Shown: positions 9,722-19,892 of the stretch, piece after piece
How the letters are laid out: every line of letters starts with the position of its first letter
Position numbering within the stretch: the first letter of the stretch is position 1
NCBI GenBank assembly: GCA_947626095.1
Contig: CANQQV010000015.1
Span: forward strand, 1 to 34,556
Origin: an uncultured Bacilli bacterium
GTDB lineage: Bacteria; Bacillota_I; Bacilli_A; RF39; UBA660
Reading direction: 5' to 3'
DNA: 34,556 nucleotides
The notes under the pieces: model-generated
Databases searched by the model: none
Told to the model about the DNA's origin: nothing
Seen by the model: only the letters and a program-made list of their open reading frames with translations
Made by a program: the position numbers and the translations under genes

Positions 9722-11125
9722 CTAGTTACTAACTCGATGATGAACATCTGGTGTCCATTCATCAATTGTTTCAAAAGTATAATCATTATCTTTAGCATAA
9801 CGAATAATATCACGTAAAGCATCACGTGTTTGTGGTTTTACATCATGCATTAGAATCATATTAATTCTTTTATTACTTAAATTTTTAATAACATTATTAT
9901 AAACCGCTTCTTTAGTTTTTGCACCACCTGCATCTTCGCAAGATACATTCCAATCAAAATAGCGATATCCTCTATTCGTAACTTCTTGAGTTAAAGTACT
10001 CATAATACCTATACTATATTTACGACTTACTGTATTGCTACTTCCTCCAGGGAACCTAATTATTTTAGAATCAACTCCTGTAAGACGTAGAACTCGATCA
10101 TGAACAATTTGTAAATCATTAAAATAAGCATCAACTGAAGCATAAACTTTAGAATAAGTATGACTTGCTGTATGTAACCCTATTGTATGTCCCTCAGCAT
10201 ATTCGCGTTTTATCAAAGAATCAGGTCCTTTATTAGTTACAAAGAATGTTGCTTTTACACCCTCTTCTTTTAAAATATCTAAGATAACATTAGTTGTTCC
10301 ATTATTTGGTCCGTCATCAAAAGTTAAATATATTACTCCTCCCTGTGGTGGAATTACTACATTTACCTTTCTTCTAACCTCACTTGCATTTCCTGCACTA
10401 TCAGTTACTTGAAAAGCAATTTCATATATTCCAATTTTTTTTGTATCTACATTATTTATTACTTTTACCTTACTAGCTATCTCACTATCACAATTATCTG
10501 TTACCGTATAACCAGGATCATTATATATTTCGCTATAATATACTTTATAATTACTAGCACCCTTTAATACTATTTTAGGACTTTCTTCATCTACATAAGT
10601 TATCTTTCTTGTAACACTACTTGTTTTACCTAAGGAATTAGTTACTGTATAAGTTACTTCATTATCATTCGTAGTTACTTTAACTTTACTAGTTAAATCT
10701 CCATCTATATCATCACTAGCTGTATATCCTTCCTCTTCATATTTTTTATTTGGACAAACTTTTACTTTACTTTCCCCTTTAAGCGTTATAACTGGTTTTG
10801 ATGATCCATCTACAACTACTGTTCTAACTTTCTCTTTTTTATATATTCCTTTTTTTAAAGTATACTTAATTTTATAAGTTCCAATTTTCTTATCAACAGT
10901 ACCTTCTATTTGAACATCATCAGAAACATCTTTACCATAATAAGTCGCTATAACTCCGGGTTCTTGATATTTTTCAGTATAATCAATAGTTATTTCATCG
11001 CTACCCTTTAATTCTAAAGACGGTGAAGCAAAATAAAGAAGAAGTGGAATTCCACTTAGGGTTAATAATAAAAACATAATAAAAAATAAAACCATTTTCT
11101 TTTGTAAAATCGCTTCTTTACTCAT
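9722..11125 (-). CDS. membrane-anchored polysaccharide deacetylase with three Ig-like repeats
   Basis: 467 aa. One TM anchor (about 11-32) leads to three extracellular Ig-like repeats of the DUF5011 type (about 38-106, 111-178, 183-256), recognisable by V-x-Y-x-E-x-Y-x-E-P-G-x-x-A endings and the recurring I-G-x-Y-x-I-x-Y/F turn. A NodB homology domain follows (about 264-460): T-F-D-D-G-P-N (catalytic base D270, metal D271), H-T-A-S-H (metal His318 and His322), R-F-P-G-G-S, D-W-N-V-S and I-L-M-H-D. These are the five motifs of metal-dependent N-deacetylases of cell-wall GlcNAc or exopolysaccharide. The repeats probably present the enzyme within the wall. The ribosome site is weak (GGGAG 13 bases before ATG 11125). 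Confidence 0.9.
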   Translation of the reverse strand: MSKEAILQKKMVLFFIMFLLLTLSGIPLLLYFASPSLELKGSDEITIDYTEKYQEPGVIATYYGKDVSDDVQIEGTVDKKIGTYKIKYTLKKGIYKKEKVRTVVVDGSSKPVITLKGESKVKVCPNKKYEEEGYTASDDIDGDLTSKVKVTTNDNEVTYTVTNSLGKTSSVTRKITYVDEESPKIVLKGASNYKVYYSEIYNDPGYTVTDNCDSEIASKVKVINNVDTKKIGIYEIAFQVTDSAGNASEVRRKVNVVIPPQGGVIYLTFDDGPNNGTTNVILDILKEEGVKATFFVTNKGPDSLIKREYAEGHTIGLHTASHTYSKVYASVDAYFNDLQIVHDRVLRLTGVDSKIIRFPGGSSNTVSRKYSIGIMSTLTQEVTNRGYRYFDWNVSCEDAGGAKTKEAVYNNVIKNLSNKRINMILMHDVKPQTRDALRDIIRYAKDNDYTFETIDEWTPDVHHRVSN

Positions 11126-11255: not shown

Positions 11256-11891
11256 CTAAAATTCTTTATTTAAATATATTTTTTTCGATATTTTATAAGA
11301 TATATAAACCATTACTACCGCTATCGCTATTATAATAGCAACCAAATATTTTTCTAAGAAATTAAATGCTTTACCAATAAAGGAAAAGTCAATATTTAAA
11401 TTAAATATTAAACCACCAATGAAAGCTATACCAATTACAATTACGAAAATAACAATGCGGGCTTTTTCAATGCCTAATTTATAGATGATTGGATACATTA
11501 CTGCTAAGACAAGAAAAGTCCCAAAGATACCTCCAAGTGTCGTAACTAATATTTCTTCTATGTCAATTGGTTGCTTTTTAATATAAGTTAAAAGAAATGT
11601 TAATAAGATCGTTATTAAGGTTGTAACAAGAATCATAATAATTGTCGCTAAGTATTTGGCCTTAACACTATTTTCTCGTCCATTAGGTAATGCTATCGTA
11701 TAAGCGTCCCAATGGTTATACTCATCATAACTAAATGTTGAAATCATAATCATGACACAGATAAATGGTAAGATAAAGGAAATATCCATTCCATCATTAT
11801 AAGCCATTACACCATAAAAGATAAAAAGAATAAATAATATTTTAAAGTTACTTTTTATCATCGCTATATCTTTTTTAATAAAACCTAACAT
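11256..11891 (-). CDS. ABC-2 type transporter permease
   Basis: 211 aa with six hydrophobic helices (about 13-31, 36-52, 71-93, 112-134, 140-160, 180-200). The N-terminal M-L-G-F-I-K-K-D and the segment F-S-Y-D-E-Y-N-H-W-D-A-Y-T-I-A-L-P are hallmarks of the small ABC-2 permeases (ABC2_membrane_5 type) found in GntR-ATPase-permease operons of Bacillota. Its ATG shares a base with the ATPase stop (TAATG), so the two are translationally coupled. The substrate is unknown; homologous operons are induced by cell-wall antibiotics in some bacteria. Confidence 0.83.
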   Translation of the reverse strand: MLGFIKKDIAMIKSNFKILFILFIFYGVMAYNDGMDISFILPFICVMIMISTFSYDEYNHWDAYTIALPNGRENSVKAKYLATIIMILVTTLITILLTFLLTYIKKQPIDIEEILVTTLGGIFGTFLVLAVMYPIIYKLGIEKARIVIFVIVIGIAFIGGLIFNLNIDFSFIGKAFNFLEKYLVAIIIAIAVVMVYISYKISKKIYLNKEF

Positions 11892-12748
11892 TACTCTTCC
11901 CCCTTAATCATTAAAACCATTAAGTCATCTAAAGTTATATTATCAATAACTTCTATTTTATATTTCTTTTTAAATTCTTTTTTATTTTCAACTAATACTT
12001 CATAAGCATATTTTTCTTTACGATATTTTATATAATCTTTTTTATTAATTTTCTTAAACTCTGCATCACTACATTTAGCAATTCCATAATTTTCTTTTAT
12101 CTCATCACAAGTCTTACATAATACAATTGCACCATTATTAATGAAAGTTATATAATCAGCTATATGTTCTAAATCCGTTGTAATATGACTAGATAAGAAA
12201 ATTGAACATTCTTCATTTTGAATAAAATCTTGAAATATTTCAATAACTTCAGCACGCGCAACTGGATCTAATCCTGAAGTTGGTTCATCTAAGATTAATA
12301 GTTTAGGATGATGTGATAAAGCTGTCACTATTTCTAATTTTTTACGCATTCCTTTAGATAATGTTTTAATCGTTTTATTATCAGGTAAAGAAAAATCTTT
12401 AAGATATTTATAATACATCTCACTATCCCAATTATGATAAATCCCTGCCATAACATTATTAACATCTTTTGGTGTTAAAATCTCAGGAAAGAACATATCA
12501 TCTAAGACAACACCAATATCTTCCTTAATCTTTTTCTCTTCTTTTTTACTATCTAAACCAAATATTTTAATATCTCCTTGATATTTTTTAATAATCCCTA
12601 AAATAGCTTTTATGGTTGTGGTCTTACCAGCTCCATTCTCCCCAATAAAACCCATTATCATTCCTTTAGGTAAATTAAAACTAATATTTTTTAAAGCAAA
12701 AGTATCATACTCTTTATTTAAGTTTTTAACTTCTAGTATATTTTCCAT
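11891..12748 (-). CDS. ABC transporter ATP-binding protein
   Basis: 285 aa from ATG 12748; its AGGAGG is inside the last codons of the GntR gene, so an in-frame ATG at 12763 that contains this site is rejected. Walker A G-E-N-G-A-G-K-T-T, Q-loop region, signature L-S-K-G-M-R-K-K, Walker B L-L-I-L-D-E-P-T-S-G-L-D-P and the switch His in S-S-H are complete. The C-terminal 70 residues are a family-specific extension. It should dimerise and power the permease encoded immediately downstream; the trio resembles YtrA-YtrB-YtrC-type or BcrA-like drug/peptide exporters. Confidence 0.93.
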   Translation of the reverse strand: MENILEVKNLNKEYDTFALKNISFNLPKGMIMGFIGENGAGKTTTIKAILGIIKKYQGDIKIFGLDSKKEEKKIKEDIGVVLDDMFFPEILTPKDVNNVMAGIYHNWDSEMYYKYLKDFSLPDNKTIKTLSKGMRKKLEIVTALSHHPKLLILDEPTSGLDPVARAEVIEIFQDFIQNEECSIFLSSHITTDLEHIADYITFINNGAIVLCKTCDEIKENYGIAKCSDAEFKKINKKDYIKYRKEKYAYEVLVENKKEFKKKYKIEVIDNITLDDLMVLMIKGEE

Positions 12749-12749
12749 C

Positions 12750-13124
12750 TTATTCCTCCTCATATAAGATATCTATCATTTCTTTTAATTCTTTTTTAGT
12801 TACATTATTTAGTTTAGCTATTTCAATCGCTGAATCCATTAAACCTTGAATTTTATTTAATTGTTCTTCTCTTGCTAAATCTTTATTAATCTGCGCCACA
12901 TAAAAGCCTTTAGCTGGTATTGTTTTAACATACCCTTCTTTAACTAATTCCTCATAAGCATTTTTCGTGGTAATAACACTACATCTTAAATCTTTAGCTA
13001 AACTTCTAATCGATGGTAATAATTCATCAGTTTGTAATTCCCCCGAAATAATTTTACTTTTTATTTGTTCTTTTATTTGTTCATAGATTGGAACTCCATT
13101 AGAGTTACTAATTATTATTTCCAT
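12750..13124 (-). CDS. GntR-family regulator, YtrA subfamily
   Basis: 124 aa, the short YtrA form: an N-terminal winged helix (P-I-Y-E-Q-I-K-E-Q-I-K-S-K-I, L-L-P-S-I-R-S-L-A-K-D-L, V-x-x-x-T-T-K-N-A-Y-E-E-L, G-Y-V-K-T-I-P-A-K-G-F-Y-V) and only a short helical C-terminal dimerisation tail, with no ligand domain. In this subfamily the regulator represses its own operon with the ABC genes. The ribosome site AAGAGGTGAT lies before ATG 13124, and two GTATATAC boxes overlap the promoter. It is separated from the ATPase gene by a single base. Confidence 0.92.
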   Translation of the reverse strand: MEIIISNSNGVPIYEQIKEQIKSKIISGELQTDELLPSIRSLAKDLRCSVITTKNAYEELVKEGYVKTIPAKGFYVAQINKDLAREEQLNKIQGLMDSAIEIAKLNNVTKKELKEMIDILYEEE

Positions 13125-13177: not shown

Positions 13178-13206
13178 AAAAAAGTAGTTTAATAACTAAA
13201 CTACTT
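13178..13206 (-). terminator. terminator of the AAA+/DUF7192-like operon
   Basis: A perfect 10-bp stem (13182-13191 with 13197-13206), 5-nt loop, then six T on the minus strand. It overlaps the TAA of the 347-codon gene. Confidence 0.88.
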
Positions 13207-14248
13207 ATTTCTTTAACTTTAAACTCATTACATCGTTTTTAAATTCTTCTTTCGCTTTTTCGACATCTATTTTATCTTCCAAATTTAAATGTTTAATCGC
13301 CGCTTCAAAGTCTTCAGCTAAATCTTCGCCTCTTATTCCCATTTCTCTTGGTTGATCAAAGAAGATATCATTAGGGCCAAAATGTAATACTTTTTTCGTA
13401 AATCTCTCACCACAGGTTGTACCGTAGCCGCTTTCCCAGTCTCTTTTTACATCTAGCGTTTCTAAAATTCTAAATAATATTCTTCGTAAAAATTCCACAC
13501 GACATAATGTCTTATATAAAGCCGCCATATTCATTCTTTCGCCATGACGTTTTATTTGGACCACAATGTATATAAGTTCATCATATTCTTCACTTAATTC
13601 AAAAGTATCTAAATCAACACTATATCCTGCTTTTTCTAAGGCTGTTAATATATTTGTAATAATGATTGCGCGATTAAGTACTTGCCTTTTCGTTGTTCCC
13701 CAATAATATGATAATGTTACATGGATTCTTACAAACTTCGGTTGTTTAATCTTTTCTTCAGTTTCATAACATAAAGGATTCCCCGCACTATAAGCTGGCA
13801 CGTTTAAATGTCCACCAGCTACTGTTCTAACTAATTTATATTTATGTATTTCTCTTAAGTTAGCACTATTTAAATCCCTTTGTAAAGTTAAGAATTCTTC
13901 ATAACCAGGATCAACATCATTTATCAAGTCTTCTACTGCTGCTTTATATGGCTTACCAGCAAAACCACTATCTTTAACTACACTATGTAAGGTTGTAAAA
14001 ACTCTTCGATTAGTTTCAGGATTACTTTTTAAATATTCATAAAGGTCAAATAAACTACTAAATCGTGCTTTATAAATTGTATAAGTATCATCACCAACAT
14101 CAATTTCCTCGGGAGGAAAAATATAATCTTCAAACTTTTCATAATTATGTGGATAATCCATTATTTCTTCCTCCTCTTCGACATCTTCTTCGTCTTCTAC
14201 TATTTCTTCTGTTTCTTTTATAACTCTTTCAAATCCATCATCTAACAA
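13205..14248 (-). CDS. DUF7192-like protein, partner of AAA+ ATPase, unknown function
   Basis: 347 aa if translation starts at TTG 14248 (AAGGA seven bases upstream). ATG 14161 (residue 30) is an alternative: AGGAGG lies eight bases before it, but that sequence also encodes the acidic tract D/E 15-29. The body contains the block G-G-H-L-N-V-P-A-Y-S-A-G-N-P-L (145-159) and, about 50 residues on, L-N-R-A-I-I-I-T-N-I-L-T-A-L-E-K-A-G-Y-S-V-D-L. This pair recalls the DUF7192 family, which I know mainly from phage and plasmid genes near MoxR/CobS-like ATPases; the match is from memory. No catalytic motif is visible. It is the last gene of the operon, and the frame is open with a heptad-like repeat upstream of the TTG. 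Confidence 0.6.
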   Translation of the reverse strand: MLDDGFERVIKETEEIVEDEEDVEEEEEIMDYPHNYEKFEDYIFPPEEIDVGDDTYTIYKARFSSLFDLYEYLKSNPETNRRVFTTLHSVVKDSGFAGKPYKAAVEDLINDVDPGYEEFLTLQRDLNSANLREIHKYKLVRTVAGGHLNVPAYSAGNPLCYETEEKIKQPKFVRIHVTLSYYWGTTKRQVLNRAIIITNILTALEKAGYSVDLDTFELSEEYDELIYIVVQIKRHGERMNMAALYKTLCRVEFLRRILFRILETLDVKRDWESGYGTTCGERFTKKVLHFGPNDIFFDQPREMGIRGEDLAEDFEAAIKHLNLEDKIDVEKAKEEFKNDVMSLKLKK

Positions 14249-14251
14249 TAA

Positions 14252-14286
14252 TAATTCCTTAAGTTTTTTAATTAATTCCTTGAGTT
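14252..14286 (-). repeat. 21-nt period direct repeat in the ATPase/DUF7192-like junction
   Basis: Two 14-base copies differing by one base (minus strand AACTCAAGGAATTA at 14273-14286, AACTTAAGGAATTA at 14252-14265) with a 21-base period. In the frame of the downstream gene they read K-L-K-E-L-I-K and K-L-K-E-L-L-L, one heptad each. The second copy also supplies the AAGGA ribosome site of TTG 14248. Confidence 0.7.
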
Positions 14287-14307
14287 TAATTAAATATCTT
14301 TTAGTCT

Positions 14308-16605
14308 TTATTTTCTTTTCTTCTTTTCTACACCATTTAAGGAATTATTACAAGTTCTAATAAATGATTTAGCTAAAATCATAGTATCAGCATCAGCTAA
14401 TCTTTCTGGCTCCGTAAACTTACCAAGACTATCAGCATCTAAGCTATAAAACTCACTAAATTTTTTCTTTAAGAAACTTAAATAATCTCTTTCTTTAGTT
14501 TGTGTAAATTTTTCACGCATTATTTGATCTATAGATTTACTATTATGATTTATGTATTTAACAATCGCCGCCGCATCTCTTGTTGTCCCAATACCAGGTG
14601 CTACATCTAAACCATGTTGTTTGGCATATATTTCACAAGCTTCTCTAAACTTAATAAATATTTCATACCAATTAGTATAATTACCAAATATTTTTTGTTC
14701 TACGACATTATCATATTTAAACTCTTTAGGTGTCATACGTTCTTGAACTGCTTCATCAATTTTACCACGTGAAGAAAATATTTGGTTTTCTCCACCACCT
14801 CTTGTATTACCAGCACTAATCATTCTAAAATTAGGGCTTATTGGAACTGTCATATCTTCAGCAAATGTTACATAACGTTTTTTATTTGGATTACCTAAAA
14901 CATCCAATAAACCAGAATATAATTCATTTAAAACAACTTGCGTATCTGTATTACCATTATCAAATTCATCTAAAGATAACATCTTACCATATACTAAAGC
15001 GACAAAAGCTTGAGTTGCTCTAAATCTTCCATGTGGATCATTATAAGCCATAATACTATATTTATCAGTTATTTTACCATTTTCTACTAAATCAATACCA
15101 ATTAATTCTGCTACTTGTTTAATAACAAATGATTTACCGCAACCAGAAGGTCCCCATAAATAAACCCAATCACCTTCTAAGATACAACGTATAACTTCTT
15201 CAACCATTTCATGGAAGAACTCTCCATTTGCTTCACGACGTTTTTTCTCTTCTAATATTTTGTCCATTCGTTTATCAAATGGAATACTCTCATCAAAAGC
15301 TGGTAAGATAACTGACTCAGTATGTTCTTTCGGAATAATAACTTGTGGATTAGCTGGTACTACTAAACGATCATTACCAGGTATAACTATTCCACTAACT
15401 GGTGCTCCTACTACCGCTTGACTTTCTGCTCCTACTTGTAATTCACTAAATTTCTTTAAAGCTTCCATTATCTTTTCATTATCACTAGCACTCTTTAAGA
15501 ATTCTTGTAATTGTGGTTCTGTTTCCACATAACTTTTTAATCGAGCTACACTATCTTGTGTTGCTTTTTGAATACGTAATAGTTCTGATGTTGTGGTACT
15601 TGATAAACCACTAGCCATTACTTTAATACTATTTATTTTTTCTTCAGCATCTAAAAGTAATTGTTTAAATATTTCATCACTACTCTTTTTTAAAGCATCT
15701 TCTAAAGATAATAAATATTCATCTAGTTTTTTAACTAATTCAAGTCTTACTTCTTCAATTTCCTTTTTCATTTCTGATATTGCATCATCACTATATGTCC
15801 TAATATCTTGTTTGCCGACTCTTAAAGTATCATTTATTTCTTTAACTCCAGCTTTCGTAAGGGCATTAACTCGATCTTGATAACTATCTACTTTCTTTTG
15901 CATAACACTAAGTTTAGCAATTAAACCTTGGGCTTTTTCCGCTTCGGCTGATATCGTTGCTAATGTTTTTTCATCAATTGGATAAATACCAGTTCTTTTC
16001 TTTGCTTCCGTAAGTCTTTTTTCTTTATAACTAGTTACATCATCTAACTCATTTTTTAAAACACTAACAAAAGATAATATTTCATTTTTTAACACCGCCT
16101 GATTAATTGTATATGGTGCTACTTCTAAAGCATAACTTACAATATCTTTATAATGCGAAGTTAAATCTTCATCATCTCTAATTATTTTCATCAGATATAA
16201 ATAATCTAAACGTGAATCAAATAAACTATAAAATCTTTTATCAAAAACATCTTTAGCTAAAATACCATCATTTCCCCCAAAGTTATGAACAAACATATTT
16301 TTTATTGCTTCATAATCAGGTGTTTTTTCACCCTCTGGTAAAAAGAACTCTATGGCATCTAGTAATTCATTATATAAGGCCTTAAATTCTTCTAAATCAC
16401 TAAAATCCGTATTAATTATTTCTAAGATTATTCCTTCTAAGAATTCGAAGTTAAAAAAGTCATTATTTCTTTTTTTATCTCTAATCTCAGTTACATAATT
16501 AACTAAATAATTAATAATTTCATAGTTTAAACCAGAACTTCTTATTACTTTAATTAATCTTTTATAATCCTTTTCTTCTGGTGTTTCTTCACTAAATATT
16601 CCCAT
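14308..16605 (-). CDS. MoxR/CobS-like AAA+ ATPase with long coiled-coil N-terminal region
   Basis: 765 aa from ATG 16605 (AAAGGGTG seven bases upstream); a GTG three codons earlier is less well placed. Residues 1-195 are helical with no known motif, about 215-390 is predicted coiled coil from its heptads, and 395-435 is a Pro/Val-rich linker. The AAA+ domain (about 460-680) has Walker A G-P-S-G-C-G-K-S (485-492), Walker B M-L-S-L-D-E-F-D, sensor-1 region I-S-A-G-N-T and a candidate arginine finger in E-A-V-Q-E-R-M. The sequence around D-E-F-D-N-G-N-T and N-E-L-Y resembles CobS/MoxR (AAA_5) remodelling ATPases, which usually act with a VWA partner; none is encoded here. It overlaps the previous gene by 14 bases. 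Confidence 0.82.
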   Translation of the reverse strand: MGIFSEETPEEKDYKRLIKVIRSSGLNYEIINYLVNYVTEIRDKKRNNDFFNFEFLEGIILEIINTDFSDLEEFKALYNELLDAIEFFLPEGEKTPDYEAIKNMFVHNFGGNDGILAKDVFDKRFYSLFDSRLDYLYLMKIIRDDEDLTSHYKDIVSYALEVAPYTINQAVLKNEILSFVSVLKNELDDVTSYKEKRLTEAKKRTGIYPIDEKTLATISAEAEKAQGLIAKLSVMQKKVDSYQDRVNALTKAGVKEINDTLRVGKQDIRTYSDDAISEMKKEIEEVRLELVKKLDEYLLSLEDALKKSSDEIFKQLLLDAEEKINSIKVMASGLSSTTTSELLRIQKATQDSVARLKSYVETEPQLQEFLKSASDNEKIMEALKKFSELQVGAESQAVVGAPVSGIVIPGNDRLVVPANPQVIIPKEHTESVILPAFDESIPFDKRMDKILEEKKRREANGEFFHEMVEEVIRCILEGDWVYLWGPSGCGKSFVIKQVAELIGIDLVENGKITDKYSIMAYNDPHGRFRATQAFVALVYGKMLSLDEFDNGNTDTQVVLNELYSGLLDVLGNPNKKRYVTFAEDMTVPISPNFRMISAGNTRGGGENQIFSSRGKIDEAVQERMTPKEFKYDNVVEQKIFGNYTNWYEIFIKFREACEIYAKQHGLDVAPGIGTTRDAAAIVKYINHNSKSIDQIMREKFTQTKERDYLSFLKKKFSEFYSLDADSLGKFTEPERLADADTMILAKSFIRTCNNSLNGVEKKKRK

Positions 16606-17929
16606 CTTGTTCACCCTTTACTAATCTAAGCATTTGCGCTTTATTTAACATATCACTAGCTTGTAAGACATTATCTTCTTTTCTAACTGTTCTTAAACTA
16701 TCCCTACTTATTCCTTTTATACCTTTACTACTTTGTTCTAAATGATAATAATATCTATTTTTTAATTTATCATCATAGTATCCCAAACCACCTAAAACTT
16801 TATCAGTAAATCCTGTTTCTATAACATATATTCCATTAGTTGGTGATAAACAAACCCCATTAATTGTTTTTCTTACTTCATCTAAAACCATTTCATGAGC
16901 ATCAACTGCCACCGTTTTATTTCTAATATAAGTTTTAGCAAAATACTCTCTTCTACTAAAAGCATCACTATTTACATCAATATACATATTATGAACTTTA
17001 ACTATCTTCTCAGTCTCACTTATCTCTTGGATTTGATTACTTACTCCATATAAAGATCCCCAAGGAAGTCTATACCAAGTTAAATTACTATCATAATCTA
17101 AATTAGCGATATTCTCCCATTCATTACTTGTTACTTCTAAATCTCTATCCTCATACACAACTGGTATTCCATCTTTTTTTATTTCATATGTCTCTTTAGG
17201 TGCTCCCTTAGTTATATGATAAAGACTACTACTTACTAACTTATAAGAAGGAATAATTAACTCAATACTAATTGCTTCTTTACTAAATTTAATCTTTATC
17301 CCAAGTGGTTCATTCTTCGTATTTAAACCACCAACATATATTTCATACTCATCACTATCTATTTTATTAAATTGTAAGTTGATATTAACTTCTATGCCAT
17401 CTACTTGACCATATAAAACATAATTATCTCGATATCCACTTACCTCTTCATCAAAAGTAACTACTCGATTCGTAAATTCATAAAATTTTTTTATATGATA
17501 CTTAATCATTGGTAATAATAATTTAACTTCGTCAGTCTGAAATAATAAACTACTATCATAACTATCTTTACCATCATAAAAACTATATATTTCATTTATT
17601 TCTTCTAAACGTCCACTTAAAAGAATTTCTTTAGTTTTATCATCAATATTTATTCTTGGACGTAACTTAAAAGGATCTGTTAAACCATCTTCTAATAAAT
17701 TATCTTTTTCATTGTTATATACTTCAACAACCTTTTGCACAAATACTTTAAAGTTTTTATCTTTGGCACTAAGATTTAAATATTTACCACCATCATATGT
17801 CACAAGTAAGGTTGGCACAACAACTAATTTACCCGTTCCATTTAACACTAAATCCCAAAGCTTAATTGATTCAATATTATGTAAATTATATATTTCTATT
17901 AATTCTCTATCCATTCCATATAATTGCAT
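16592..17929 (-). CDS. unknown 445-residue protein, first gene of the AAA+ operon
   Basis: 445 aa, soluble, no signal peptide or TM helix. Start ATG 17929 has AAGGGTG close upstream. The middle (about 150-260) alternates short hydrophobic strands and charged turns, suggesting a beta-rich domain (E-V-N-I-N-L-Q-F, E-Y-E-I-Y-V-G-G, I-K-I-K-F, I-S-I-E-L-I-I-P). The C-terminal third has a conserved-looking W-Y-R-L-P-W-G-S-L-Y-G and Y-V-I-E-T-G-F-T-D-K-V-L-G-G-L-G. No family is recognised. The coupling by overlap to the ATPase gene, and the shared promoter and terminator, suggest it works with the ATPase as substrate, adaptor or effector; this is inference. Confidence 0.6.
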   Translation of the reverse strand: MQLYGMDRELIEIYNLHNIESIKLWDLVLNGTGKLVVVPTLLVTYDGGKYLNLSAKDKNFKVFVQKVVEVYNNEKDNLLEDGLTDPFKLRPRINIDDKTKEILLSGRLEEINEIYSFYDGKDSYDSSLLFQTDEVKLLLPMIKYHIKKFYEFTNRVVTFDEEVSGYRDNYVLYGQVDGIEVNINLQFNKIDSDEYEIYVGGLNTKNEPLGIKIKFSKEAISIELIIPSYKLVSSSLYHITKGAPKETYEIKKDGIPVVYEDRDLEVTSNEWENIANLDYDSNLTWYRLPWGSLYGVSNQIQEISETEKIVKVHNMYIDVNSDAFSRREYFAKTYIRNKTVAVDAHEMVLDEVRKTINGVCLSPTNGIYVIETGFTDKVLGGLGYYDDKLKNRYYYHLEQSSKGIKGISRDSLRTVRKEDNVLQASDMLNKAQMLRLVKGEQDGNI

Positions 17930-17951
17930 AACATCACCCTTAGCATTGATT

Positions 17952-17980
17952 ACTATATAGATTTAATATTCTTTTGTCAA
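17952..17980 (-). promoter_or_regulatory. near-consensus sigma-A promoter of the AAA+ operon
   Basis: Minus strand TTGACA (17975-17980), exactly 17 bp, TATAGT (17952-17957), 23 bases before the first ATG. Among the best promoters in the window, so the operon is probably expressed constitutively or at high level. Confidence 0.82.
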
Positions 17981-17982
17981 GC

Positions 17983-18003
17983 AAAAAGGACTTATTTAAG
18001 TCC
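17983..18003 (-). terminator. terminator of the transglutaminase-like gene, stop codon in the stem
   Basis: A 7-bp stem GGACTTA/TAAGTCC (17988-18003) followed by TTTTT on the minus strand; the TAA is in the stem. The downstream promoter starts three bases further on. Confidence 0.75.
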
Positions 18004-19866
18004 CATTTCTTCTCCTTCTACATCAAATTTATTAACGCCATTTAATAAAACTGTCTTTTCTTCATTTTTATCTACTTTATATCTTACTGGAAAATTTTTC
18101 CGATATATTTGTTTATTATAAGCCATTGTTTCATTAACTCTCTGTTCTAGTTCTTCGCCTTCTAATCCCAATACTATATGATAATAAGCTGTAATACCTT
18201 CTTTTAGTGTTCGACCACTAACTACTTTATTAACTTTAGTTAAAATATGTTCACCAATATCAAGGAATATATTTTGAATATCTGCTTTCGAATAATTAAA
18301 ACCATAATCTCTAATTCCTGAATATTTACTAATTATTTCTTGATAAAATTCATTATCTAAAGTTTCAAACTTATCTAATAATTCTCTAATAATATCTGCT
18401 TCTTTTTTATTTTTATTCTTATCTAACAATATATTAATTTTTGCATAAAACTCTTCTAGACTATGCACAAAAAATAATTCATCTACCCCATAACAATTAA
18501 AATAGTTCGATCTTCTTGTCCCATTATATTCATCTTGTGTCATTAGAGCATAACTATAAGTATCATGTTCCATATCATTATCCCATGTTGGATCAGCTAT
18601 AAAATAACCATCTATACCATACTTAGGATCAACTAAATGAACTTCTCTTCTAGCATGATCTCCTCGTTCAATCATGACTTCATGTTCTTTTCCCGTTTTA
18701 GAAGAAACTATCTTTTCTGGCAAAATTACAATATCATCTGGAACATCATCAAATCCTACATTTACTCCTACTGAGTAATCTAAACTAGGTATCCCTAGTT
18801 TTTCTAATAAATCACCAAGTAATCTTGAAAAACCTACACAAACTATATAATCATTATCTAATAACTGATATAGATTTCGTGAATTAGCTTTATCTTCATT
18901 ATTTTCTTTATATTTTTTAAATTGTTTAACCTTATTATAAGCAAATAAATATTTTTCAAAAGGACTTAAATTCATTGCTGGTAAAACCATTTCCATAAGT
19001 CTTCGTTCATTTTTTATATATGTTAAAATATCACAATCTAAACCTAAATGCTTATTAGATTTAATAAAAATATTTTGCGTATCTGGTAATTCTTCCAAAT
19101 GATTTAATAAATAATTATTAAAATCATTTTTATTATCAACATAAAGATATATCTCACCTTTAAAATCTAATTCTTTTAATCTTCTAATAACTTTAAAATA
19201 ATTATTATTATCAAGTGATTTTAAATCAATTTTTGCTTTTTTATTTATGTATTTTAAATAATATAATTCTTCATCATTTAAGGGATTATTAAAATAAAAC
19301 GAATCATTACTTTGTAACATTGTATAAGGATAATAACCAATTAATTCTCTTCTATTATGCAAAATAATTGGATCAAAATTATCTTTAAGTTCTTTACTTA
19401 CTTCATAACTTCTTATTTCTTCGACATTCCCTTTTTTTAAAGAATTATATTCATTAAGTGTTAAAGGAGCCACATCATCCCTATTACCAATTCTAACTCT
19501 TTCTATATTTAGATTATTACCAATTGCTTCACAAAATCGATCATTAACTATCATACTATCAGCTAAAGCAATAAATTCTCCTTTTTTATAACGACAAATA
19601 AATTCAATTAAGTCATCTATTTCCTCTTTATGTTCTTGATAATATTTTGAATCAATACTAAGTACTTTTGATCCAAATACTGCTGAAACTAATACTAACG
19701 GATGTTCATAATCAGAATAAATAACTTTAGTATCTTTAATTAAAGCACACGAATCAATGGAAATTTCTTCTATCTCTAATTCACTTAAATGTTCTTTAAT
19801 TTCGGCAATCGTTAATATTTTAGGATTTAAAAAATCTAATTTATAACCTAGTGCTATTTTTTCCAT
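17992..19866 (-). CDS. large cytosolic protein with transglutaminase-like (papain-fold) domain
   Basis: 624 aa from ATG 19866 (AGGTGAT five bases upstream); ATG 19869 is too close to that site. No signal peptide or TM helix. Residues about 1-300 are unrecognised. From about 300 the pattern is that of a transglutaminase-like core: L-S-P-F-E-K-Y-L-F-A-Y-N, then D-Y-I-V-C-V-G-F-S-R-L-L with candidate nucleophile Cys343, L-G-I-P-S, G-D-H-A-R-R-E-V-H-L-V-D with His404, and F-I-A-D-P-T-W-D-N-D with Asp425. The spacing C-H-D fits the family. Such domains act as peptidases, amide hydrolases or cross-linkers; the substrate is unknown. It has its own terminator but lies only 62 bases upstream of the AAA+ operon. 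Confidence 0.72.
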   Translation of the reverse strand: MEKIALGYKLDFLNPKILTIAEIKEHLSELEIEEISIDSCALIKDTKVIYSDYEHPLVLVSAVFGSKVLSIDSKYYQEHKEEIDDLIEFICRYKKGEFIALADSMIVNDRFCEAIGNNLNIERVRIGNRDDVAPLTLNEYNSLKKGNVEEIRSYEVSKELKDNFDPIILHNRRELIGYYPYTMLQSNDSFYFNNPLNDEELYYLKYINKKAKIDLKSLDNNNYFKVIRRLKELDFKGEIYLYVDNKNDFNNYLLNHLEELPDTQNIFIKSNKHLGLDCDILTYIKNERRLMEMVLPAMNLSPFEKYLFAYNKVKQFKKYKENNEDKANSRNLYQLLDNDYIVCVGFSRLLGDLLEKLGIPSLDYSVGVNVGFDDVPDDIVILPEKIVSSKTGKEHEVMIERGDHARREVHLVDPKYGIDGYFIADPTWDNDMEHDTYSYALMTQDEYNGTRRSNYFNCYGVDELFFVHSLEEFYAKINILLDKNKNKKEADIIRELLDKFETLDNEFYQEIISKYSGIRDYGFNYSKADIQNIFLDIGEHILTKVNKVVSGRTLKEGITAYYHIVLGLEGEELEQRVNETMAYNKQIYRKNFPVRYKVDKNEEKTVLLNGVNKFDVEGEEMGLK

Positions 19867-19892
19867 CATATCACCTATTATTTAAATTATAA

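Follow-up and report, generated by a model that had tools for sequence, protein, structure and literature searches.

A candidate ternary AAA+/VWA remodelling system encoded by a co-inherited three-gene operon of uncultured Bacilli

Classical VWA partners of AAA+ ATPases are thought to hold their targets by means of the MIDAS metal site. For the NorQ-NorD pair, the accessible part of PMC13036017 describes a finger with which the VWA partner reaches into the AAA+ ring pore, a contact between its C-terminus and the post-sensor-1 loop, and a rotation of the VWA domain upon ATP turnover. Ternary systems combining a MoxR-vWA pair with a VMAP component have, according to the accessible part of PMC7159879, been described mainly from multicellular bacteria. 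Here, a three-gene operon was analysed that lies in a 34,556-nucleotide (nt) stretch of DNA from an uncultured Bacilli bacterium (GCA_947626095.1, CANQQV010000015.1; contig 15 of a 1.6 Mb assembly in 34 contigs), whose full length is referred to as the window. The genes are all located on the minus strand and encode a predicted beta-rich protein of 445 aa with no recognised family (gene 1; 16592..17929), a CobS/MoxR-type AAA+ ATPase with a long helical N-terminal part (gene 2; 14308..16605) and a DUF7192 protein with a VWA-like domain lacking the MIDAS motif DxSxS (gene 3; 13205..14161). We propose, with a probability of roughly 0.6, that this trio forms a ternary AAA+/VWA remodelling machine in which the VWA domain was kept for coupling to the motor, metal-dependent target binding was lost and a new third component was added.

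The product of gene 3 (318 aa) matches the Pfam family DUF7192 (PF23822) with an E-value of 2.1e-18 and 67.1 bits (cut-off 27). This is its only Pfam family above cut-off, which bears out the DUF7192-like identity assigned to the third protein by an earlier, sequence-only reading of the window. The same reading held that no VWA partner was present. Fold and profile now argue otherwise: the gene 2 motor very likely has its VWA partner in DUF7192, a diverged version that has lost the metal site. The structure predicted for gene 3 showed the alpha/beta fold of a VWA domain, and a structure search returned 50 listed matches, about 45 of which we take, by their titles, to be VWA domains, the other five being GATOR1 chains. 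The best structural match among those listed was the VWA domain of NorD, an AAA+-bound VWA. The profile alignment of gene 3 to the VWA domain of CobT covers the MIDAS strand as well as the segment just before the VWA domain. The MIDAS position itself reads TLSYY instead of DxSxS. No DxSxS motif was found in any of 21 DUF7192 sequences or 21 trio loci (the two sets share four sequences), and all 41 CobT domains have it; kept instead in DUF7192 are G116, G127 and P129 (segment before the VWA domain), K204 and an FLRR..FR..E block.

Some results weigh against this assignment. The Z-score of the structure match is middling, the profile score depends on the alignment used, and the hhalign scores of the DUF7192 sets, 17.0 for the close set A4 (24.2 against a three-sequence CobT alignment), 19.1 for the trio set and 27.8 for the merged set, stand beside 22.1 and 16.9 for genes 2 and 1 as controls. 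The first two points would suit an alternative in which DUF7192 adopts another alpha/beta fold and the trio constitutes an unrelated AAA+ machine, but the agreement of two independent routes, i.e. the structure search with its AAA+-bound VWA domain at the top and the profile alignment on the CobT MIDAS strand, makes this alternative improbable. The search of the PDB with the gene 3 sequence yielded nothing useful (best E-value 0.14, to NUP54), no plasmid match to DUF7192 was obtained at 1e-3, and no paper containing the word DUF7192 was found in a limited literature search. Since the domain VWA_CoxE (PF05762) is matched at E-values of up to 0.001 in 8 of the 16 genomes sampled from the genus (one match over the cut-off), other VWA-like proteins may exist there; the window's own genome contains a sub-threshold match of this kind (G000:C2).

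On its sequence, the gene 2 product is identified as a CobS/MoxR-type AAA+ ring motor with complete motifs. Its best profile match is phrog_249, labelled 'porphyrin biosynthesis' (E-value 1.2e-24), accompanied by a Pfam match to AAA_5 (4.6e-7), and the motifs GPSG.GK (G485-K491) and DE.D (D546-E547) as well as N600 and R613/R623 are kept at a level of at least 95% in 21 loci. We take these elements to represent Walker A, Walker B, sensor 1 and the arginine finger, respectively. The single gene 2 sequence gave no match against the PDB at 0.01. The full AAA+ core reported by the sequence-only reading was thus recovered; its figure of about 390 residues in front of the core was too low, because Walker A begins at residue 485 of 765.

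The pairing of this ATPase type with DUF7192 extends to phages. Using tblastn with the DUF7192 protein of the window, 262 phage records were retrieved, 236 of them of Staphylococcus; the search with the ATPase gave 339 phage records, again with 236 of Staphylococcus, the identity of the two sets of 236 not having been compared record by record. In 22 of 22 viral or phage DUF7192 loci, a set that includes some near-identical relatives, DUF7192 is preceded on its strand by an AAA+ homologue (21 by profile, L220 by a Walker A frame), and one or two small genes stand between the two in three annotated phage records. Carriers of DUF7192 include Kayvirus, Pecentumvirus, Homburgvirus as well as Mycobacterium, Gordonia, Rhizobium, Lactobacillus, Acinetobacter and crAss-like phages. 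The crAss-like cr10_1 carries a 'transcriptional regulator' gene (L079:4707-5516) whose product Pfam assigns to DUF7192 (1e-10); it stands after the gene for a 'porphyrin biosynthetic' ATPase. The phage link raised by the sequence-only reading thus applies to DUF7192 and to the ATPase, and fails for the 445-aa protein, which matches none of 50,697 phage records. This absence also counts against the idea that the trio is a domesticated chaperone for phage assembly or takeover, derived from a phage AAA+/DUF7192 pair that was fitted with a new partner. The frequency of the pair in tailed phages and the proposal, in the accessible part of PMC7824862, that a MoxR-vWA pair aids virion assembly in jumbo phages would accommodate such an origin, but in the Kayvirus record read the pair is found outside the structural block, among nucleotide-metabolism and unknown genes. 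We consider a phage-derived chaperone rather unlikely.

Three other phages, nickie and T5S1 (so annotated) and ANB28 (by Pfam), encode CobT beside CobS, with no DUF7192 in the stretch read; the CobT proteins of phages match PF06213 and PF11775. DUF7192 was absent from the fetched stretches of all 80 viral CobT loci, two of which contained neither profile and six CobT alone. DUF7192 thus seems to occupy the place that CobT has in other phages. These findings bear on the possibility that genes 2 and 3 are a CobST-like pair that, together with a CobN/ChlH subunit, activates a cobalt or magnesium chelatase. The phrog_249 label would fit this function, as would the proposal, in the accessible part of PMC8651126, that viral cobST clusters borrow the CobN protein of the host. 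However, CobN-Mg_chel (PF02514) was found in 0 of the 16 genus genomes, several of which are incomplete, with 5 of 14 control genomes positive, so that a cobaltochelatase is unlikely; moreover, the MIDAS motif is lost, the 318-aa protein with PF23822 as its sole family contains no CobT N-terminal part, and the fetched stretches of the viral CobT loci are free of DUF7192. Taken together, a chelatase function appears highly improbable.

The three genes are closely tied to each other. Nine of the 16 genus genomes carry the ATPase, and exactly these also carry DUF7192, with 12 loci each that are adjacent in 12 of 12 cases; gene 1 occurs in seven of the 16, always together with the ATPase/DUF7192 pair. 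The remaining five pairs (types B and C) have ATPases of 443-582 aa and no gene 1, with one of them cut on a short contig. Separate type B/C pairs were observed on chromosomes at L041, L042, L043, L023, L044 and L048:5223-7852, the last of which is a type-B pair located directly before a trio. In the family, the gene 1 profile detected 14 of 291 sampled genomes and 12 of 150 genera, and the neighbourhoods of all 14 were read. Overall, 23 distinct trio loci were collected after removal of L194 and L195 as repeats of L049 and L050; two of them (L050, L200) are truncated at the end of a contig and were left out, leaving 21 complete loci. Gene 1 of L202 was over the 1e-3 limit in the locus scan, yet was found by the gene 1 profile (6e-9) and by BLAST. 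The order gene 1 - AAA+ - DUF7192 with nothing in between is found in 21 of 21 complete loci, at gaps of -26 to 152 nt and at identities to the window proteins down to 14% (gene 1), 21% (gene 2) and 21% (gene 3). The pairwise distances of the three proteins correlate at 0.97, 0.94 and 0.96 (at most 0.54 with permuted labels, 1000 trials each), which could be explained by shared descent alone. The three-gene operon proposed by the sequence-only reading is thus co-inherited across genomes, and the lack of co-occurrence that this reading had set as a refutation did not come about. Two trios are present in genome G482. All named carriers of gene 1 are metagenome assemblies, described as an uncultured Bacilli, Firmicutes or Tenericutes bacterium. 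The 392 genomes sampled across the phylum yielded just one further DUF7192 match, at L061 (G304:C3:44403-45026).

Gene 1 was left without a family by the sequence-only reading, and profile searches agree: nothing below 0.001 was obtained in Pfam, PHROGs, NCBIfam or PADLOC, and, as regards a VMAP-C or iSTAND domain, no Pfam family lies above its cut-off, no direct comparison with a VMAP-C profile having been made. The predicted structure is beta-rich (mean predicted local distance difference test score of the model, 75), with no fold match above background, and gene 1 was found in none of the IMG/VR candidates. At four Der-site loci, gene 1 shows 43-80% identity compared with 89-95% for the neighbour Der and hence diverges faster.

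The trio also changes its site. Five loci, including that of the window, follow Der and a gene for a 625-aa protein, and the other loci have different upstream neighbours. Two relatives, G002 and G007, have the site without the trio: Der and the gene for the 625-aa protein are followed there by the gene that in G005 and G006 comes after the trio, either directly or one gene beyond; judged by eye, this gene presumably encodes threonyl-tRNA synthetase. The prophage remnant that the sequence-only reading had named as a possible outcome is not seen in any obvious way, since the neighbouring genes that were read are of non-phage type, as judged by profile or, in the remaining cases, by eye. A TelA gene (PF05816) or a relative adjoins a diverged trio in 6 of the 19 complete loci whose genomes were searched (all but L048 and L053). 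TelA matches lie directly 5' of gene 1 in L203 (5e-9), L204 (3e-23), L206 (2e-23) and L207 (2e-5, below cut-off), the gene at this position in L205 resembles the TelA-type upstream genes by BLAST only, and in L201 TelA is located directly downstream of gene 3 (3e-60). Genome G580 carries TelA at another position. The only TelA match obtained within the window's genus is a sub-threshold one in G013, a genome without gene 1, indicating that TelA is not a required part of the system.

This setting would be compatible with a ternary anti-phage conflict system like MoxR-vWA-VMAP, in which gene 1 senses the invader and the AAA+/VWA pair sets a threshold or remodels an effector. The gene order of the 21 complete loci equals that of VMAP systems (accessible part of PMC7159879), the distribution is patchy (7 of 16 genus genomes) with several occupied as well as empty sites, gene 1 outpaces Der at the same site, and TelA, a neighbour in some genomes, appears in phage-excluding Ter systems in the accessible part of PMC7824862. 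Conversely, no effector or defence domain was recognised in any of the three proteins, PADLOC returned nothing below 0.001 for them, the neighbours seen are mostly housekeeping or unknown genes, and the VMAP systems come mainly from multicellular bacteria. A conflict system of this type is possible, although we regard it as doubtful.

For the favoured ternary remodelling machine, the following mechanism can be put forward. Gene 2 would provide the AAA+ ring motor and gene 3 its VWA partner, with the segment before the VWA domain acting, by homology, as the counterpart of the NorD finger in the motor pore. Since the MIDAS motif is gone, target binding must lie elsewhere, and target recognition may have passed to gene 1, beta-rich and always encoded first, together with the N-terminal coiled-coil part of gene 2. 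By analogy with NorQD, ATP hydrolysis would twist the VWA domain and thereby pull on a complex held by gene 1. The remodelling machine suggested by the sequence-only reading is supported as an inference, with a third component that is new. The most tentative step is the physiological role, which may be an accessory response to stress or invaders at the cell envelope, favoured because the trio is patchy and changes its site, gene 1 diverges fast and TelA adjoins it in some genomes.

The operon is delimited by a near-consensus promoter at its 5' end and a hairpin terminator at its 3' end, and the arrangement described by the sequence-only reading, with the first two genes overlapping, held with small corrections. 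The promoter (TTGACA-17-TATAGT; 17952..17980, minus strand; 11 of 12 consensus bases) is the best of the promoter-like matches in a 7-kb stretch, where such matches are not enriched as a class (42 found, 44.6 expected by chance). TTGACA or TTGACT-17-TATAGT is present 50-56 nt 5' of gene 1 in 9 of the 21 complete loci, at differing sites, and the spacer of this TTGACW-17-TATAGT element is variable and not conserved among the nine. The terminator (13182..13206, minus strand) consists of a 10-bp A/T-rich stem followed by a T run (-9.6 kcal/mol, z -2.0); an equally good fold is reached by 5 of 200 shuffled sequences, and the hairpin was missed by a pattern scan because the latter demands three G-C pairs. 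Gene 2 most likely starts at ATG 16605 (765 aa), preferred over the alternative GTG 16614 because relatives begin with MG[IL], and then overlaps gene 1 by 14 nt. Gene 3 most likely starts at ATG 14161, just after a GAGGAGG sequence, because relatives start there, rather than at TTG 14248, which shortens the 347-residue protein of the sequence-only reading to 318 aa.

A second hairpin (17987..18004, minus strand; -10.2 kcal/mol, z -3.5) ends the upstream gene for the 625-aa protein (17992-19869) and divides it from the operon. This gene was rejected as a fourth member, with matches, several of them partial, in 13 of 16 genus genomes, including genomes without a trio. Its product has no Pfam family above cut-off, is conserved beside Der in the genus, occurs as two tandem copies in G007 and G008, and by eye appears to resemble transglutaminase-like proteins. 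Directly after the trio (11256-13124) follow a GntR regulator and then an ABC transporter ATPase and an ABC-2 membrane protein; relatives have different genes in this place. Further along (9722-11125), a polysaccharide deacetylase domain is located behind three bacterial surface Ig-like domains.

The single most useful result is a likely identity for the unnamed family DUF7192 (phrog_1909). Many phage genes labelled 'porphyrin biosynthesis' adjoin a VWA-like partner without the metal site used in classical MoxR/VWA models. Speculatively, DUF7192 may represent a VWA family free of the metal site that spans phages and bacteria and is used by the 'CobS/porphyrin' ATPases of phages without CobT, many of which would then be separate AAA+ machines that play no part in cobalamin metabolism; in one family of Bacilli, it may have been joined by a third protein, and sometimes TelA, to give a mobile machine of three parts that remodels a target in the envelope or of an invader and does not depend on metal for adhesion. 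If the proposed organisation is correct, tests could address the coupling of VWA partners to the motor separately from their binding of targets, and compact ternary AAA+ machines would become available as a group for study.

Among known systems, NorQ-NorD likewise combines an AAA+ motor with a VWA partner, the partner whose VWA domain is the best structural match of gene 3. NorD differs in possessing DxSxS and an N-terminal domain, no third component of the gene 1 kind is encoded with it, and gene 3, with its 318 aa, is without the motif. CobS-CobT is related through the phrog_249 profile of the ATPase and the alignment of DUF7192 to the CobT VWA domain, including the preceding segment, whereas the trio lacks MIDAS and the CobT N-terminal part, and no CobN was found in the genus. 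The phage AAA+/DUF7192 pairs (Kayvirus S25-4, X577_gp134/135; Listeria AG20, AG2_151/152; Gordonia Sephiroth, gp 135/134) share DUF7192 and a homologous AAA+ core, arranged side by side and in the order seen in the trio, but have a short ATPase N-terminus and no gene 1. The type B/C pairs of the genus are likewise adjacent AAA+ and DUF7192 genes, with another ATPase N-terminus and again no gene 1. Compared with the ternary MoxR-vWA systems (VMAP, iSTAND), no VMAP, effector or EAD domain was recognised in the trio and its VWA domain is without the MIDAS motif, but it has in common with them, as far as the accessible part of PMC7159879 describes them, the order of third component, MoxR and VWA, tight co-inheritance and the presence of several copies in some genomes.
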